From a virus, in IMG/VR virus record IMGVR_UViG_3300005731_000058, positions 1-41,522 of that record: a stretch of DNA of 41,522 nucleotides. One strand, written 5' to 3'. Below the pieces are notes generated by a model, which ran no database searches, was not told the origin of the DNA, and worked only from the letters and a program-made list of their open reading frames with translations. Positions 19,795 to 29,889 of the stretch are shown here, one piece after another. A program made the translations under genes and the position numbers. The first letter of the stretch is position 1. Each line of letters opens with the position of its first letter.

Positions 19795-19834
19795 TTCATT
19801 GCCTTTAATTGTGTGTTGGTTGCTGTGTTGAGAT

Positions 19835-19881
19835 AAAGATACACAACTTATCGAACGGCGTCAACAATGTTGTGTATCTTT
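19835..19881 (-). promoter_or_regulatory. leftward promoter with flanking operator arms, copy 1
   Basis: On the minus strand TTGACG (19864-19859), 17-base spacer, TATCTT (19841-19836). A perfect 13-base inverted repeat (AAAGATACACAAC / GTTGTGTATCTTT, 21 bases apart) overlaps the -10 and sits just upstream of the -35. The same layout recurs at 20193-20238. Rightward, the same hairpin is followed by T7 and could also terminate transcription. Confidence 0.7.
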
Positions 19882-19899: not shown

Positions 19900-20151
19900 T
19901 TAAGCCATTTCCTCTTTTGCGTATTGTATCATTGCTTTCATTTCTGCCGACTTGTAAGCGTCCATTGCTTTCTGCCAAACGTCCTTACCGGAAAAGACCT
20001 TGCCAGCACCTCTCCAGACTGAATGTGAAGCGTTGTTACAGATGACTTGTAGCGAGTAATCAGACACCGAGATGAAAGCGGATTTCTTTTCGGCTTGAAG
20101 CTCAAAGGAAGTTCCGTATTTCGTCGTTTCTTGCGATAGAACCAAGATCAT
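19900..20151 (-). CDS. hypothetical protein (83 aa)
   Basis: First gene of the leftward cluster, 43 bases from the -10 of the second promoter/operator module. Sequence: short strands at the N-terminus (ILVLSQETTKYGTSFELQAEKKSAFISVS), a VWRGAGKVF segment and a helical C-terminus. No family recognised. Early expression is expected from its promoter. Confidence 0.6.
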   Translation of the reverse strand: MILVLSQETTKYGTSFELQAEKKSAFISVSDYSLQVICNNASHSVWRGAGKVFSGKDVWQKAMDAYKSAEMKAMIQYAKEEMA

Positions 20152-20192
20152 CGTTTTGCCTTTGTTAATGTGTTGCGTTTGCCTGATGAATT

Positions 20193-20238
20193 AAAGATAC
20201 ACAACTTATCGGCACTATGCAATATGGTTGTGTATGTT
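20193..20238 (-). promoter_or_regulatory. leftward promoter with flanking operator arms, copy 2
   Basis: Minus strand TTGCAT (20222-20217), 17-base spacer, TATCTT (20199-20194). Arms AAGATACACAAC and GTTGTGTATGTT (one mismatch) are 21 bases apart, as in copy 1, and the 17 bases AAGATACACAACTTATC are identical between copies. It serves the gene ending at 20151. Confidence 0.7.
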
Positions 20239-20839: not shown

Positions 20840-21451
20840 ATGCGAGAGATTACAGCAGGGCAATTCAGGGAAATCGTCGAAAAGAACAAGTTATGGATCA
20901 ATGGAAAGGAAGGCGGTGACAGAGCCAACTTGAGTGGCGTCAACTTGAGACACGCCAACTTGAGTGGCGTCAACTTGAGACACGCCAACTTGAGTAACGC
21001 AAACTTGAGTAACGCCGACTTGAGACACGCCGACTTGAGTAACGCCGACTTGAGACACGCCGACTTGAGTGACGCCGACTTGAGACACGCCGACTTGAGT
21101 GACGCCAATTTGAGACGCACCAACTTGAGTGACGCCAATTTGAGTGACGCCGACTTGAGTGACGCCGACTTGAGACACGCCAACTTGAGTGAAGTCGACT
21201 TGAGTGAAGCCGTCGCTCGTCTTGATTTTGGCGGCTGGTCCATCTGCGTAAGGCACAATATCACATCTATTGGCTGTCGCACATGTAGCAACGATGACTG
21301 GCTCAAATGGTCACCTGAAGATGTCGCCAACTTTGACTCAAATGCAAGTGATTGGTGGGCTACTCACGGTGATGCTGTCAAAGCGGTAATTCGGTGTGTC
21401 ATGGGAAAACATCGCGGGGTGAGCCAAGCAAAAAACAAAACAACCGCTTGA
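20840..21451 (+). CDS. pentapeptide-repeat protein
   Basis: 203 residues. Residues about 29-124 are near-perfect A(N/D)L(S/R)x pentapeptides ([20 protein letters not shown]), about 19 in a row, predicting a right-handed quadrilateral beta-helix. A C-terminal domain follows: [28 protein letters not shown]... then [14 protein letters not shown]. From memory this tail accompanies similar phage proteins. Some pentapeptide proteins (Qnr, MfpA) mimic DNA and act on gyrase; whether this one does is unknown. Terminator at 21480 follows. Confidence 0.85.
20924..21210 (+). repeat. 15/30-bp tandem repeats encoding pentapeptides
   Basis: Units of the type AACTTGAGTGGCGTC and GACTTGAGACACGCC alternate about 19 times with almost no synonymous drift: Leu is always TTG and Ser always AGT. 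This indicates recent expansion or homogenisation by recombination or slippage, and it opens long spurious frames on the other strand. Confidence 0.9.
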
Positions 21452-22554: not shown

Positions 22555-22573
22555 AGGTGAGGGGATATGAATG
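22555..22573 (+). promoter_or_regulatory. double ribosome-binding site for two overlapping frames
   Basis: AGGTGA (22555-22560) lies six bases before the ATG at 22567, and GAGGGG (22559-22564) lies six bases before the ATG at 22571. The two ATGs (ATGAATG) open different frames, both of which stay open for more than 870 bases. Confidence 0.55.
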
Positions 22574-23463
22574 AGCTGGCATTGTTTGCAGGAGCAGGAG
22601 GGGGAATTCTCGCTTCAAAGTTACTTGGATGGAATACGGTCGGATCGGTCGAAATCGAAGACTACCCCAGGCAAGTGCTACTGCAAAGACAGCGAGATGG
22701 AATCCTGCCAAAGTTCCCAATCTGGGACGACATCAGAACATTTGACGGGAAACCCTGGAGAGGAATCGTTGACGTTGTCTCAGGCGGATTCCCGTGCCAA
22801 GACATCAGCACAGCCGGAAAAGGAGCAGGGATCGAAGGGGAACGAAGCGGATTGTGGTCGGAGATGGCAAGAGTCATTCGCGAAGTACGACCCCGATTCG
22901 CGTTCATGGAGAACTCACCAGCTCTCACTTCTAGGGGGTTACATCGAGTTCTCGGAGACTTGGCCGAAATGGGGTTTAATGCAAGATGGGGTGTGCTGGG
23001 TGCAGACGACTGCGGCGCCCCACACAGACGGAAACGAATATGGGTACTTGCCCACTCCAACATGTCAGGAAATTGCCCATCCGAATGTGAAACTGACGCC
23101 TTGTGGAAAAAGAAGACTCACAAAGGACGGGAAGGACAGCCATTCATTGAATCTGACGGATCGGGTAATGCTCAAAGAAAGAGAGAAGTTTCCGACGCCA
23201 CGATGCCAGATGTACAGAAAAGTGAATCTGCGAGAGCAGTGGTATGCAAAAAATGGGGAGAATGGAAACTTAGAGGAGCGGATAGCAGTGATAAATCCTT
23301 CCTCGATTGGTGGGAGGCTGAACCCAGATTGGACCGAGTGGCTGATGGGATGGCCAATCAAGTGGACCGACTTAAATCCATTGGAAACGGACAAGTACCA
23401 GCAGTGGCTGCAACAGCATTCACAATTTTATCGCAAGGACTAGAAAAGGAATTTGCATGTTAA
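22567..23463 (+). CDS. C5-cytosine DNA methyltransferase
   Basis: 298 residues. Motif I LFAGAGGG (6-13), motif IV GGFPCQDIS with catalytic C77, motif VI as MENSP (114-118, Ser where ENV is usual), motif VIII APHRRKRIW (151-159), and motif X RLKSIGNGQVPAVAATAF near the C-terminus. The target recognition region between VIII and X is short (about 100 residues). It methylates cytosine, probably to evade host restriction. The same DNA is open in the +1 frame (22571-23443). The stop overlaps csrA. Confidence 0.93.
   Translation: MNELALFAGAGGGILASKLLGWNTVGSVEIEDYPRQVLLQRQRDGILPKFPIWDDIRTFDGKPWRGIVDVVSGGFPCQDISTAGKGAGIEGERSGLWSEMARVIREVRPRFAFMENSPALTSRGLHRVLGDLAEMGFNARWGVLGADDCGAPHRRKRIWVLAHSNMSGNCPSECETDALWKKKTHKGREGQPFIESDGSGNAQRKREVSDATMPDVQKSESARAVVCKKWGEWKLRGADSSDKSFLDWWEAEPRLDRVADGMANQVDRLKSIGNGQVPAVAATAFTILSQGLEKEFAC
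22571..23443 (+). CDS. +1-frame protein inside the methyltransferase gene (290 aa)
   Basis: Open for 290 codons in the +1 frame. Beyond length, it carries segments that I recall from stand-alone phage proteins found near methyltransferases: SFAKYDPDSRSWRTHQLSLL, EFSETWPKWGLMQDGVCW, YLPTPTCQEIAHPN, and LNPDWTEWLMGWPIKWTDL near the end. Trp, Pro and Gly are placed as in a folded protein. ATG 22571 has its own Shine-Dalgarno register. Function is unknown; a methyltransferase partner or specificity factor is conceivable. Could still be a passive shadow of a conserved gene. Confidence 0.55.
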   Translation: MSWHCLQEQEGEFSLQSYLDGIRSDRSKSKTTPGKCYCKDSEMESCQSSQSGTTSEHLTGNPGEESLTLSQADSRAKTSAQPEKEQGSKGNEADCGRRWQESFAKYDPDSRSWRTHQLSLLGGYIEFSETWPKWGLMQDGVCWVQTTAAPHTDGNEYGYLPTPTCQEIAHPNVKLTPCGKRRLTKDGKDSHSLNLTDRVMLKEREKFPTPRCQMYRKVNLREQWYAKNGENGNLEERIAVINPSSIGGRLNPDWTEWLMGWPIKWTDLNPLETDKYQQWLQQHSQFYRKD

Positions 23464-25172: not shown

Positions 25173-25359
25173 GTCGGAATTAAACATTGTGCTGGAGTCC
25201 ATCGAAAAGGTTCGCGCGAAGTCGAGAGAGATGGCCCCATTTAGACCTGTGACAGTCCCAATGTTTACTGAAATGTTCGAGATTCAGAAGGAGCTAGACA
25301 TCATCGAAAAAATCGTGAGAAGGAACGGAGTGTCAGACCCAGAGGTAGCCAATGACTAG
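25165..25359 (+). CDS. small helical hypothetical protein (64 aa)
   Basis: Two acidic/basic helices (ESELNIVLESIEKVRAKSREM and MFTEMFEIQKELDIIEKIVRRN). GGGAGG precedes the ATG. Lies directly before the exonuclease gene and overlaps it by eight bases; possibly an accessory of the recombination module. Confidence 0.55.
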   Translation: MVESELNIVLESIEKVRAKSREMAPFRPVTVPMFTEMFEIQKELDIIEKIVRRNGVSDPEVAND

Positions 25360-26305
25360 CCCTGGTATCTATCACGGAATGAGCTTCGAGGATTACGCGG
25401 CAATCGATGCGTTGAACTATTCAACATTGAAGCGGGCGATTGTCAGTCCTGAAGAACCGCACTCGATGAAACACCTGAAGGCAGCGATTGAGGGCGATAA
25501 TCAACTGCGACAAACGGACGCAATGCGGCTTGGTCGGGCAATTCACGCTCGCATTCTCGAACCGGATTTGTTCAATAAGATTCCAATTCAGCGGAAATGC
25601 TCGCACATCAAGAAGGATGAGCAGCGATGCACAAATCTTGGAAAGTACACCGATGAATTCGGTTGGTATTGCGGTGTTCGCGGTCATGCTCCAGCCGATG
25701 TTGTGGAGCAAGTTGATTACATTAGCGAGGCAGAAGCAAAGCAGGCGGACAGCGTTTACGAGTCGCTCAGAACTTCAGAAGTTTTGCATCACCTCAGGTC
25801 GTCCGGTTGGTCCGAATCAGTTGTTGTTTGGGAGCACAAAGGGCAGTTGCTGAAGTCGCGAATTGACCGACTATCGAAGGACTGCCGGTTGATTCTTGAT
25901 ATCAAAACTATTCAGGCGTCACGCGGTTCAGTTGACTTATGCCGCAAGCAAATTTGGAACCTGCGATACGACATTCAGACGGCAATGAACATTGATGGAG
26001 TACAGGCAGTAACGGGAGTCAAGCCACGTTTCGTGTGGGTGTTTATTGAAAAGTCCGAACCGTTCGACGTGCAAGTGATTGAAGCGGATGAAATCGACCA
26101 TGCGTATGGTGCGGTGGAGTATCAAGGCATTTTAGACAGATGGAAAATCGCAAATGAGCAAGAGCAATACTACGGATACATCAGTAATCCACGACGAATC
26201 AAACAGGGACGATTTATCGACCAAGGCGTTCCCGGCTGGGTCCGTCAACGCGATGAAAAAGCAGGGCGAGACATCCTTGCAGAATTCGCAGAGCTTCGAC
26301 AGTAG
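25352..26305 (+). CDS. RecE/exonuclease VIII-like PD-(D/E)XK nuclease with Cys/His insertion
   Basis: 317 residues. LRLGRAIHARILEP-type segment at 59-71, metal-binding D172 (KSRIDRL), and LDIKT with D183 and K185, then YDIQTAMN: the order of the PDDEXK_1 exonucleases that resect double strands for annealases. Residues 80-115 form an insertion with C83, H85, C93, C107 and H112, resembling a small zinc knuckle. The ERF gene follows, as expected for a two-component recombinase. Confidence 0.82.
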   Translation: MTSPGIYHGMSFEDYAAIDALNYSTLKRAIVSPEEPHSMKHLKAAIEGDNQLRQTDAMRLGRAIHARILEPDLFNKIPIQRKCSHIKKDEQRCTNLGKYTDEFGWYCGVRGHAPADVVEQVDYISEAEAKQADSVYESLRTSEVLHHLRSSGWSESVVVWEHKGQLLKSRIDRLSKDCRLILDIKTIQASRGSVDLCRKQIWNLRYDIQTAMNIDGVQAVTGVKPRFVWVFIEKSEPFDVQVIEADEIDHAYGAVEYQGILDRWKIANEQEQYYGYISNPRRIKQGRFIDQGVPGWVRQRDEKAGRDILAEFAELRQ

Positions 26306-27071
26306 CCAACTGTTGCAAATTGCAATTCAGAATGGCGTTGATGCTGACTCGCTGTCGAAACTTGTCGACTTGAACCAGCGAATGATGGCAATGCGAGCTA
26401 AGCAGGACTTCTATTTGGCGCTGCAGGAGTTTCAAGACAGGTGTCCTCCAATCCCAAAAAACAAGAAAGTTGACTATACAACAAAGGCGGGAGGACGAGT
26501 GAATTATTCCTACGCAACGCTCGATCACATTTCCGAGACGATTAGACCACTACTGACAGAGCTAGGATTGTCGTACACATTCGAGTGTGGTTCGGACGCG
26601 AAATCAATGAAAGTTGCGTGCATAGTTCACCACGTCGCGGGACATAGTGAGACCAGTGAGTTTCCGGTAGATATTGACCGCAGCTCGAAGATGAGTTCAA
26701 TGCAGCAGTCAGCGTCGGCGATGACATATTGTCGAAGATACGCACTCTGCAACGCTCTCGGAATCACCACAGCAGACACCGACGACGACGCCTACTCAGT
26801 CGGGGAAAGCCAGCGACGTGAACGCAGCGGCGAACCAGGACAGGAGCAGTTTGACAATATTAAACGCTATTGGTTTGAGTTGCTCAACCCCGATGGCGGC
26901 AAGTCAGAACGTGCTCGCAGGTTTGAAAAGTGGGTGGTTGAAACTACGAGCATGAAGCCTGCATTTGCAAACGACTGGAAGAAGTGGCTTTCGCAACACT
27001 TCGAGCAATGCAACGACGCACTGGATGAGATGCGGCGGGTGGAAATCGAATACATGGAGCCGGTTGAATGA
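26253..27071 (+). CDS. ERF-family single-strand annealing protein
   Basis: 272 residues from ATG 26253 (53-base overlap with the exonuclease); an in-frame ATG at 26154 would give 305. ERF core: DLNQRMMAMRAKQDFYLALQEFQ, VNYSYATLDHISETIRPLLTELGLSYTF, then SSMQQSASAMTYCRRYALCNALGI, which is the diagnostic QxxGSAxTYxRRYxL pattern of ERF/Redbeta-like annealases. Works with the exonuclease and SSB in recombination and replication restart. Confidence 0.85.
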   Translation: MKKQGETSLQNSQSFDSSQLLQIAIQNGVDADSLSKLVDLNQRMMAMRAKQDFYLALQEFQDRCPPIPKNKKVDYTTKAGGRVNYSYATLDHISETIRPLLTELGLSYTFECGSDAKSMKVACIVHHVAGHSETSEFPVDIDRSSKMSSMQQSASAMTYCRRYALCNALGITTADTDDDAYSVGESQRRERSGEPGQEQFDNIKRYWFELLNPDGGKSERARRFEKWVVETTSMKPAFANDWKKWLSQHFEQCNDALDEMRRVEIEYMEPVE

Positions 27072-27219: not shown

Positions 27220-27672
27220 ATGGCATCGTTTAACAAAGTTATTTTAGTTGGGAACCTCACGCGAGACCCGGAACTGAGGCACGTTGGAAGCGGAACCGCT
27301 GTCTGCGAACTTGGTTTGGCTGTCAGTCGCACATGGTTTGATAAATCGGCGAACGATAAAAAGGAGGAGACAACGTTCGTTGACGTCACCTTGTGGGCAA
27401 GGCAGGCGGAAGTTGCGGCGGAGTATCTCGCGAAAGGTCGTCCCGTGTTAATCGAAGGACGATTGAGCCTATCGACATGGCAGGACAAGACGACAGGAAA
27501 GAACCGCTCGAAACTATTCGTGGTCGGCGAGAGCATGACCATGCTCGGAAGCGGTGGAGGCAACCAGGGAGGCGGGAATCACAGCTCGAAAAAGAGCGAC
27601 GACAGCGAGTATTCTGGCGTTCACGATTCGTTCGATAATTTGCCAGCAGACGCTGACGACGTACCGTTTTAG
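27220..27672 (+). CDS. ssb: single-stranded DNA-binding protein
   Basis: 150 residues. OB-fold from residue 1 (FNKVILVGNLTRDPELR, TFVDVTLWARQAEVAAEYLAKGRPVLIEGRLSL), a Gly/Ser/Asn linker and the acidic tip DADDVPF, which binds partner proteins. It protects replication intermediates and serves the ERF module. Its 3' end is duplicated at 28669. Confidence 0.96.
   Translation: MASFNKVILVGNLTRDPELRHVGSGTAVCELGLAVSRTWFDKSANDKKEETTFVDVTLWARQAEVAAEYLAKGRPVLIEGRLSLSTWQDKTTGKNRSKLFVVGESMTMLGSGGGNQGGGNHSSKKSDDSEYSGVHDSFDNLPADADDVPF
27634..27669 (+). repeat. ssb 3'-end direct repeat, copy 1
   Basis: 36 bases encoding [12 protein letters not shown]; 35 of 36 match copy 2 at 28669-28704. In copy 1 the repeat ends TTT followed by TAG, the ssb stop. 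Confidence 0.95.
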
Positions 27673-27765
27673 TCAACAGATCAAGATCAGCCGGTTGCGG
27701 GGGTTGATTATCCATTTCAAAAAACGCCGATTGCGACTCGGCTGCAACATTTTGTTTTATGCATC

Positions 27766-28626
27766 ATGCGTCACATTTGCCCCATTAGCGGAAAAGATTC
27801 GTTCGCAACAGCAATGTTGTTGCGGCGTGAGGATTTGCCGCTGGAGTACGTTTGGCACGATACAGGATGGGAACTGCCAGAGGTGTACGAGTGGATCGAC
27901 AAGGCGGAAAAACATTTGGGGCAACCGATTATCCGATGTGGTGATAACCTGACGGAGATCGTCGCGGAGCAAGGATTGCTGCCGTCGCCAATGCGGCGGT
28001 TCTGCACGAAGTATGCGAAGATTAAGCCGATGAATGAGTTTGTCGGCAAGCATCCGTTTACGTTGTATTTGGGACTACGAGCGGATGAACCAGGCAGGAT
28101 TGCAGGATTGCGGCAGTCGAAGTGGGAGACGCACCGATTCCCGTTGCAGGAAAACGGATTGGACATGTCAGCGGTGTGGGAAATGGTCGCAGGGGTGGGC
28201 ATGTTGCCGCCGTTGTTCGTGTGGCAGTGGATGGTTGACCGCGTAGCGGAACTTGGCGGCAGGCGTCCCAAAGGGATGCCAGATTGGGAATGGTGGCCGT
28301 TGTTTTCCGGTCGCAGTCGTCCGAATTGTGACCGTTGTTTTTACCAGCGGTTGTACGAGTGGGTCTGGTTGTGGGAAACGCACCCAAATAGATTTGAATC
28401 AGCGGTTAAAACAGAGGAAAGCACGCAGCACGCCAGCGATTTTCGCTGGCTCGGCAAGGGCAAGCCATTGAGCGAAGTGTGGAAGCGTGCCGAACAGATC
28501 AAGGAACGTCGAGCTAGGCAGATCGTGAGGTATTTGAACGACCTTAACGCTCCGAGACTGTTTGACGATTTAGTGCAAGGCAATCCGTTTGGGGCGACCT
28601 CGTGTGGTTTGTATTGCGGAAAATAG
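27766..28626 (+). CDS. PAPS reductase/PP-loop ATP pyrophosphatase-like protein
   Basis: 286 residues. PISGKDSFATAML (6-18) is a PP-loop, lacking one Gly of the usual SGGKDS; RRFCTKYAKIKP and LGLRADEPGR follow as in phage phosphoadenosine-phosphosulfate-reductase-like proteins. The C-terminal NCDRCFYQ and SCGLYCG Cys pairs suggest metal binding. Such genes have been linked to sulfur or nucleotide modification (DndC-like); the substrate is unknown. No good ribosome-binding site precedes it, and ssb-end repeats flank it, so it looks like an inserted cassette. Confidence 0.82.
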   Translation: MRHICPISGKDSFATAMLLRREDLPLEYVWHDTGWELPEVYEWIDKAEKHLGQPIIRCGDNLTEIVAEQGLLPSPMRRFCTKYAKIKPMNEFVGKHPFTLYLGLRADEPGRIAGLRQSKWETHRFPLQENGLDMSAVWEMVAGVGMLPPLFVWQWMVDRVAELGGRRPKGMPDWEWWPLFSGRSRPNCDRCFYQRLYEWVWLWETHPNRFESAVKTEESTQHASDFRWLGKGKPLSEVWKRAEQIKERRARQIVRYLNDLNAPRLFDDLVQGNPFGATSCGLYCGK

Positions 28627-28638
28627 AGTACACAGAAC

Positions 28639-28655
28639 GACCGGTTAATCCGGTC
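28639..28655. other. short inverted repeat at the cassette end
   Basis: GACCGG and CCGGTC around a five-base loop, 14 bases before the second ssb-end repeat. No T-run; could mark the end of the inserted cassette. Confidence 0.35.
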
Positions 28656-28668
28656 AGAAAGGACCACT

Positions 28669-28704
28669 GATAATTCGCCAGCAGACGCTGACGACGTACC
28701 GTTT
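28669..28704 (+). repeat. ssb 3'-end direct repeat, copy 2
   Basis: Identical to 27634-27669 except one base. Here the ssb stop position reads CAG instead of TAG, and CAGGAG directly forms the ribosome-binding site of the LexA-like gene at 28717. Confidence 0.95.
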
Positions 28705-28716
28705 CAGGAGAAATTT

Positions 28717-28956
28717 ATGGACACGACAACAAGGCAGATAGAAGTGTTGAAGTTTATCAATGACTTCAACATCGTCCGGCAATACTCGCCAACCGTTCGG
28801 GAGATAGGAACGGAGTTTGATATCAAAAGCCCAAATGGAGTGGCGAGCCACTTGAAAGCACTCAGGAGAAAAGGGTTGGTTGATTGGTCCATAGGTCAGA
28901 GTCGGACAATTCATTTAACTGCTAGAGGATTTCTCCACCTTTGCGATTCAAAGTGA
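28717..28956 (+). CDS. LexA-type winged-helix DNA-binding protein without peptidase domain
   Basis: 79 residues: [54 protein letters not shown] then SRTIHLT. This is the whole LexA DNA-binding domain (SPTVREIG recognition region, SPNGVxxHL helix) and nothing more; the S24 autoproteolytic domain is absent. It could hold host SOS genes or phage genes repressed without being cleaved during DNA damage. CAGGAG is seven bases upstream. Confidence 0.82.
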
Positions 28957-28970
28957 AAAAACTACCAGCG

Positions 28971-29168
28971 ATGAACAATTTGAAACTCGACAGTTACGGT
29001 CTGCGTTTGTTGCACGCGAATTACCACTTGAATCATGCTCGATTGATACTGCCGAAAAACCACAGACTGCAAGCTGACATTATGCGAATTATTGACAGCA
29101 TTACCGAGGCGATTGAAACAGATTGCCGAACCCCGGACAGCCGGGAGAGAGGTCAGGATGGCAGGTGA
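28971..29168 (+). CDS. small hypothetical protein (65 aa)
   Basis: Helical and basic (YGLRLLHANYHLNHARLILPKNHRLQADIMRIIDSITEAIE). A GTG at 28953 overlapping the previous stop is an alternative start giving six more residues; neither has a strong ribosome-binding site. Overlaps the next gene by 11 bases. Confidence 0.5.
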   Translation: MNNLKLDSYGLRLLHANYHLNHARLILPKNHRLQADIMRIIDSITEAIETDCRTPDSRERGQDGR

Positions 29169-29889
29169 TTGGATACCAATGCGGCTTGATTTACATACCG
29201 ACCCGGCAGTTATGCGAATGGCTGACGAGTTGGACGCCAGTGAAGATTTTATTGTTGGTTGCCTGCATCGGGTGTGGTCGTGGGCATCGTCTCACAGCGA
29301 AGACGGGCAAGTCGATGCAACAGAAAAGCAGCTTTCAAGGATGACCTCAAAGGAGTTCGTGGCGGCAATGCAACTCGTTAACTGGCTTGACGTTAACGAA
29401 GAAGGATTTATTGTTTTTCCACGGTTCGAAACGTGGATGGCAAGCTCCGCAAAGAAGCGATTACAGGCGTCAAAACGCAAGCAGAAAGAGAGGTGTCACG
29501 CTAATGTCACGCTCAAGTGTGACAAAAACGTGACTACAGAACAGTACAGAAGAGAACAGTACAGTTCTCTTCTGTCTGACAGAACAGATGGCGGTCGGGG
29601 CGGAAATGCCTTTGGGGGGCATTCCGCCAACGGTCAGGGGGATACAGTTTTCAGTAAACTCCGCGAATCAGACTTTACATGCATGGAAACAATGCGTCGC
29701 TGGTTCGACTGGCAGAAGGAATTTCCGAAGCCGGTTTATCCCAAAGCAAGCAAAGACGACTGGCGATTAGTTCAGGCAATTGCCCGACAGGTAGAGGCTG
29801 AGGCGAAGAAGTCGAAAATCGGCATGTTCGCGAAGATGGCCGGCGGCGGAATTGCACCACGAGCAAATTACTTCACGGAGGAAAAATGA
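29158..29889 (+). CDS. replication initiator-like protein (DnaT/O-like)
   Basis: 243 residues from ATG 29158 (GGGAGAGAGG upstream). N-terminal winged-helix type: AGDWIPMRLDLHTDPAVMRMADELDASEDFIVGCLHRVWSWASSH. A polar linker (about 100-175) covers DNA with strong repeats, and the C-terminal part (RRWFDWQKEFPKP...) resembles helicase-loader regions. It sits directly before the DnaB gene, so it probably opens the origin or loads the helicase. Confidence 0.65.
   Translation: MAGDWIPMRLDLHTDPAVMRMADELDASEDFIVGCLHRVWSWASSHSEDGQVDATEKQLSRMTSKEFVAAMQLVNWLDVNEEGFIVFPRFETWMASSAKKRLQASKRKQKERCHANVTLKCDKNVTTEQYRREQYSSLLSDRTDGGRGGNAFGGHSANGQGDTVFSKLRESDFTCMETMRRWFDWQKEFPKPVYPKASKDDWRLVQAIARQVEAEAKKSKIGMFAKMAGGGIAPRANYFTEEK
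29536..29628. other. candidate replication origin inside the initiator-like gene
   Basis: A perfect 12-base inverted repeat (ACAGAAGAGAAC 29546-29557, GTTCTCTTCTGT 29564-29575, six-base loop) overlaps two direct copies of GAACAGTACAG; a third CAGAACAG follows at 29579. A second hairpin (GGCGGAAATGCC / GGCATTCCGCC, one bulge) lies at 29599-29628. As in lambda, where ori lies inside the O gene, repeats within an initiator gene suggest an origin. Confidence 0.4.

Follow-up and report, generated by a model that had tools for sequence, protein, structure and literature searches.

An SspD-like gene between two copies of an ssb gene end in a viral genome, and flanking repeats around some of its phage relatives

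Introduction

The uptake of single cargo genes by phages usually goes unseen, as nothing is left at the joints to show it. Where the end of a gene has been duplicated, the acquisition event is both marked and given a direction. In fungal mitochondria, mobile endonuclease ORFs (mORFs) bring their own copy of the C-terminus of the target gene and displace the native one, as at atp6 in Allomyces macrogynus and at atp6, atp9, cox2 and nad3 in Glomus; in Glomus atp6, the second gene end lies about 1,000 bp downstream (PMC3630166). Among phages, Rad52-like recombinases, Erf included, recombine short and diverged homology, and the minimal pairing segment of Red-beta is 23–27 bp (PMC3945230).

Here we describe a comparable layout in a 41,522-base IMG/VR virus record (the window, by which we mean the whole stretch of DNA that was analysed), where a gene for a PP-loop enzyme lies between the intact end of ssb and a second copy of that end.

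Results

The end of ssb recurs downstream of a PP-loop gene

The gene order around the site is exonuclease VIII-like, Erf, ssb, PP-loop gene, LexA-like, replication initiator and DnaB, with the following features.

25352–26305, plus strand: exonuclease VIII-like gene (DUF3799/PDDEXK; PHROG 412, 2.4e-42)
26154–27071, plus strand: Erf single-strand annealing protein, a Rad52-like recombinase (Pfam ERF, 2.8e-24; PHROG 155, 3.3e-40)
27220–27672, plus strand: ssb, single-stranded DNA-binding protein, 150 aa (Pfam SSB, 7e-32; PHROG 44, 3.5e-43)
27634–27672, plus strand: repeat copy 1, comprising the ssb stop and the 12 codons before it (37 of 39 bases shared with copy 2)
27673–27765, plus strand: 93-base leader from the ssb stop to the PP-loop gene, unlike ssb or the LexA-like region
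27766–28626, plus strand: SspD-like PP-loop (ATP pyrophosphatase-fold) gene, 286 aa, the cargo (PADLOC SspD, 8e-48; Pfam PAPS_reduct, 7e-11; PHROG 424, 1.6e-31)
28639–28655, plus strand: short inverted repeat GACCGG-TTAAT-CCGGTC just before copy 2 (from the sequence and a fold and terminator scan)
28669–28707, plus strand: repeat copy 2, the displaced ssb end, with CAG in place of TAG; it continues into the ribosome-binding site of the LexA-like gene
28717–28956, plus strand: LexA DNA-binding-domain-only protein, 79 aa, lacking the peptidase domain (Pfam LexA_DNA_bind, 9.5e-21)
29092–29889, plus strand: replication initiation protein, likely start 29158 (PHROG 2509, 2.4e-33)

Direct reading and a repeat search of the window showed that copy 1 (GATAATTTGCCAGCAGACGCTGACGACGTACCGTTTTAG) and copy 2 (GATAATTCGCCAGCAGACGCTGACGACGTACCGTTTCAG) agree at 37 of 39 bases, the longest uninterrupted match being 28. 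A preliminary description of this DNA had reported that the 36-base ssb end recurs with one mismatch 1,035 bases downstream, and this was confirmed: without the stop codon, 35/36 bases are identical, the spacing is 1,035 bases (345 codons), and only 2.8e-11 pairs as good as this one are expected by chance in the window. Among 58 gene ends tested, that of ssb is the only one that recurs (the next best reached 24/36). No exact match to the 27-base core of the repeat was found in IMG/VR, a search from which the window's own record may have been left out.

Copy 2 differs from copy 1 by a T-to-C change at base 8 and another at the stop codon, so that the ssb stop TAG (27670–27672) corresponds to CAG. 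As had been described, this CAG falls within CAGGAG, the ribosome-binding site of the LexA-like gene, which ends 6 bases before its ATG at 28717. Past base 36, however, the copies agree only in the two bases AG; the duplication may therefore end at TTT, and whether the change at the stop is a mutation at all is uncertain. Amber recoding, with CAG in place of TAG in copy 2 and three genes in one frame, was ruled out by stop codon usage in the window (TGA 34, TAA 16, TAG 8), and an open 93-base frame is common (a random one is open in ~40% of cases).

As read from the sequence, recombination through the two copies would join SSB in frame, via QEKF, to the LexA-like domain, giving a 233-aa fusion because copy 2 has no stop codon. 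The insert would thus be hard to lose cleanly, and such a fusion upon precise excision should disfavour its loss.

The ssb protein of the window is nearest to ssb proteins of Planctomycetota (≤80% over the OB fold), and the host of the phage is therefore probably a planctomycete. Elsewhere in the window, a pentapeptide-repeat protein (20840–21451) is built from many tandem 15-base units. Near-identical hairpin/T-run elements, AAAGATACACAAC...TTGTGTATCTTTTT, at 19826–19853 and 20184–20211 bracket a small minus-strand ORF (19900–20151) and are probably paired terminators.

The junction behind ssb varies, but its end is not duplicated elsewhere

The preliminary description had treated ssb as a conserved end at which cargo is acquired. 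This did not hold up: neither the 77 readable ssb loci from IMG/VR nor the ~78 from planctomycete and verrucomicrobial genomes in GTDB contained a duplicated ssb tail, with the best chance matches to the ssb end at other ssb loci reaching 25/36 and 23/36. Recurrent insertion at ssb ends is ruled out by these ~155 loci, and no other cargo was found in them between duplicated ssb ends. The junction behind ssb is nevertheless variable, since an HNH-type endonuclease gene directly follows ssb in two of the closest phage ssb loci, L007 (5099–5578) and L022 (5477–5962), without an end duplication. The ssb of L007, whose metagenome also yielded the nearest terminase (L109), has the highest best-segment identity (69%). 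By eye, L003 may be a third locus with HNH behind ssb, although its gene has no family match. In Clostridioides phage AR1074-1 (L392, 2000–3244), a PAPS-reductase-like gene is likewise separated from ssb by one small gene, and no repeats are present.

A further proposal, an ancestral junction at which ssb led straight into the LexA-like gene with stop and Shine-Dalgarno sequence overlapping, is conjectural. Among 160 ssb loci, none had ssb adjacent to a LexA gene, and none had a LexA-like gene, a PP-loop gene or a replication initiator near ssb; the proposal rests on two matching bases. An overlap of stop codon and Shine-Dalgarno sequence as TAGGAG does exist behind another phage ssb (L006). 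No empty site, that is, an ssb-LexA junction free of the cassette, turned up in phage records, IMG/VR, contigs from GTDB or ~390 genomes belonging to one phylum, and no donor arrangement (ssb followed by the PP-loop gene without the repeat) was found.

The cargo is best described as SspD-like

The cargo protein matches the PADLOC SspD profile at 8.1e-48 over residues 2–258, covering most of the profile length. It had been labelled PAPS-reductase-like, and Pfam likewise gives PAPS_reduct; the label can be refined to SspD-like, however, because CysH models score far below their cut-offs (NF002537, 14.9 bits against 154; TIGR00434, 13.3 against 165). We therefore rejected assignment as a PAPS reductase (CysH), and a role in sulfate reduction is unlikely. 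The AlphaFold model is confident (pLDDT 85.8) and has its best PDB matches among APS/PAPS reductases and also matches other PP-loop enzymes, and the best PDB profile match of the family is chain C of 21fy (2.8e-16), deposited as 'PptA', for which we found no open paper.

Strong bacterial homologues from 392 genomes (the phylum of a Schlesneria-titled MAG) are 33–37% identical over the aligned proteins and include loci where the gene lies behind SspC and is thus SspD proper (three checked). The nearest phage relatives are L303, L306 and L305 (44–46% identity), followed by L307 (40%). In the window (27766–27801) and in these four relatives the PP-loop reads SGKDS, with one glycine missing from SGGxDS, whereas SGG is kept in all aligned homologues from the host phylum. 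The clade of the window cargo and its nearest phage relatives also carries ~25 extra residues. Most conserved motifs other than the PP-loop are kept in this SGKDS clade, and the cargo itself retains the CT-K, RADE, CxxCF and C-terminal Cys motifs.

The cargo clade occurs in many unrelated phage contexts. None of the window proteins scanned with PADLOC, a subset of its ORFs, was recognised as SspA, SspB or SspC. In five other phage contigs, a C5-methylase-like gene is found close to the relative of the cargo, and the window has such a gene at 22567–23463. We infer that the cargo is a putative DNA-modification or anti-restriction gene. Its GC content (0.54, compared with 0.53 for ssb) shows no strong compositional difference from the phage. 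Two long ORFs in different frames, of 298 aa (22567–23463) and 290 aa (22571–23443), cover nearly the same stretch; one of them is a C5-cytosine methylase.

Direct repeats flank several phage relatives of the cargo

We scored a gene as flanked when one copy of a direct repeat lay ≤170 bp upstream and the other ≤1.5 kb downstream. The survey covered the best 80 of ~290 IMG/VR relatives of the cargo, which formed 55 clusters, and 14 other loci; the window was left out. Controls were ~797 other phage genes, including many neighbours in the same contigs, after removal of SspD-like entries (L304, and L365 twice). Flanking repeats were present at 5 of 69 SspD-like loci and at 4 of the ~797 control genes (Fisher p=2.7e-4), an enrichment that was noticed after the fact and consists of five cases. 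The 14 further SspD-like loci (phage records plus L002) had no flanking repeats, and duplication is therefore a minority outcome.

Among the best 80 IMG/VR loci, L303/L304 has a repeat of 254 bp (96% identical); the others are 247 bp in L365, 38 bp with one mismatch in L339, 31 bp in L318 and 26 bp, exact, in L338. L303 and L304 come from different metagenomes, and the repeats of the different cases have no sequence in common. In L303, L318, L338 and L339, the full repeat occurs exactly twice in each 36–41 kb record, both times flanking the relative of the cargo.

The case most like the window is L339, where the repeat is the 3' end of an upstream DNA methyltransferase gene and copy 2 meets an in-frame TGA at once; the anatomy is the same. 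In L303 the repeated stretch covers the final codons of the gene upstream together with a small ORF. The L338 and L318 repeats correspond not to gene ends but to the leader or start of the downstream gene, and a different process may have produced them. That they are genome-wide start-associated sequences was ruled out by searching the whole records, each of which held two copies. Together, the comparisons suggest that the recurrence of flanking repeats goes with the cargo and not with ssb. The preliminary view that a cassette entered and duplicated the ssb end was thus supported as to a cargo enclosed by a duplicated gene end, which is seen again in unrelated phages, but not in giving ssb a special part.

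Probable origin of the 1,035-base segment

The 1,035-base segment, the cargo gene with short flanks, probably entered behind ssb through a recombination event that duplicated the final ~36 bases of ssb on the far side. Most likely, DNA carrying an ssb end and the PP-loop gene from a related phage was joined at the ssb end. With X for the upstream gene and Y for the downstream gene, this could have happened by one unequal join between an X-PP genome and an X-Y genome, or a circle bearing a short piece of X beside PP could have integrated through a single crossover (Campbell-type). Either route would yield X-end, PP, X-end, Y: ssb would be completed by copy 1, with copy 2 as the native end pushed downstream. 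The exonuclease, Erf and SSB encoded by the phage itself could plausibly have carried this out. Short-homology recombination fits because the exact run of 28 compares with the 23–27 bp of Red-beta, and because the exonuclease and Erf genes adjoin ssb upstream. Weighing against an insertion are the absence of an empty site or a donor among the sequences searched and the GC content of the cargo, which is close to that of ssb.

An alternative that we judge unlikely, yet deserving of some weight, is tandem duplication of ssb, or of an ssb-PP block, followed by loss of the second ssb except for its last 36 bases; the PP-loop gene may then be an old neighbour. This would account for a repeat that ends at the ssb stop and for the closeness of the copies, and deletions upstream of a ribosome-binding site should be easily tolerated. 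However, nothing ssb-like was found upstream of copy 2, where even gapped alignment of the upstream flanks scored no better than shuffles; this excludes the degenerate second ssb gene that the preliminary description had named as its own refutation. A tandem ssb duplication also leaves unexplained the non-ssb repeats around SspD-like genes of unrelated phages.

It is improbable that both copies were kept for a function, for instance as an RNA signal or translated leader in front of two early genes. Phages do have repeated leaders and start-associated sequences (PMC3203893), the repeats of L338 and L318 lie at gene starts, and copy 2 supplies the Shine-Dalgarno context of the LexA-like gene. 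Against this, the genome holds two copies only, and copy 1 is ssb coding sequence that lies 93 bases from the start of the PP-loop gene, a start with no Shine-Dalgarno motif. Folds at the edges of the insert, including the inverted repeat at 28639–28655, are no better than those of shuffles.

Less probable still is insertion of the transposon or integrase type, with the repeat as a target-site duplication or as the attachment core of a recombinase acting in trans. A discrete insert between direct repeats, with the 3' end of a gene restored as by integrases that use gene ends, would suit such a mechanism, but the insert encodes no recombinase and the repeats measure 26, 31, 36–39, 38, 247 and 254 bp without a common sequence. 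Because their lengths vary in this way, we favour recombination over a transposase or a fixed attachment site. An assembly artefact joining two strains at a common stretch is the least probable of all: the IMG/VR record is probably metagenome-derived and the exact run of 28 is near short k-mers, but the copies differ at two bases, both flanks are sensible (an intact ssb with its stop, and an intact ribosome-binding site with the LexA-like gene), and two-copy flanks appear again in independent contigs, L303 and L304 among them.

Discussion

The results suggest that the SspD-like gene moves from phage to phage as an insertion, with duplicated flanks left behind. We put forward tentatively that the phage SspD-like PP-loop genes may belong to one clade of compact mobile cassettes. 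These cassettes would have entered gene junctions again and again, through single crossovers at short homology or through unequal joining, with 26–254 bp duplicated and no dedicated recombinase involved. They would then be a bacterial-virus counterpart of fungal mORF insertions, in which an anti-restriction or DNA-modification cargo replaces the homing endonuclease. If the cargo family does behave in this way repeatedly, the choice between illegitimate joining and short-homology recombination by annealing proteins becomes directly testable. That this relative of SspD stands alone, and that it often lies close to DNA methylases, suggests a possible role in phage DNA modification or in interference with phosphorothioate-based defence.

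Compared with known systems, the cargo resembles the SspD of SspABCD single-strand DNA phosphorothioation in its profile match, its motifs and its identity to host-phylum homologues, but it is solitary, reads SGKDS rather than SGGKDS and has the insertion of ~25 residues. Phage morons annotated as 'phosphoadenosine phosphosulfate reductase' share its PHROG (424) and fold, but CysH models score the cargo far under their cut-offs. Unlike a transposon or integrase insertion, the window and its relatives show no fixed length of duplication, and the insert has no recombinase. Mosaicism generated by Rad52-like proteins (Erf, Red-beta, RecT; PMC3945230) also exchanges accessory genes through short homology, and the window has an exonuclease, Erf and SSB beside the site; ordinary homologous exchange, however, replaces sequence without duplicating a gene end. 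The closest described anatomy is that of the mORFs, which share the succession of gene core, inserted end completing the gene, cargo ORF and displaced native end. Their cargo is a homing endonuclease and the two atp6 ends share 63.5% identity (PMC3630166), whereas the window, in a phage, has a PP-loop enzyme, no endonuclease between the copies, and a repeat of 36–39 bp at 95–97% identity. The locus thus resembles an mORF in layout but, having no endonuclease, is not a member of that class.
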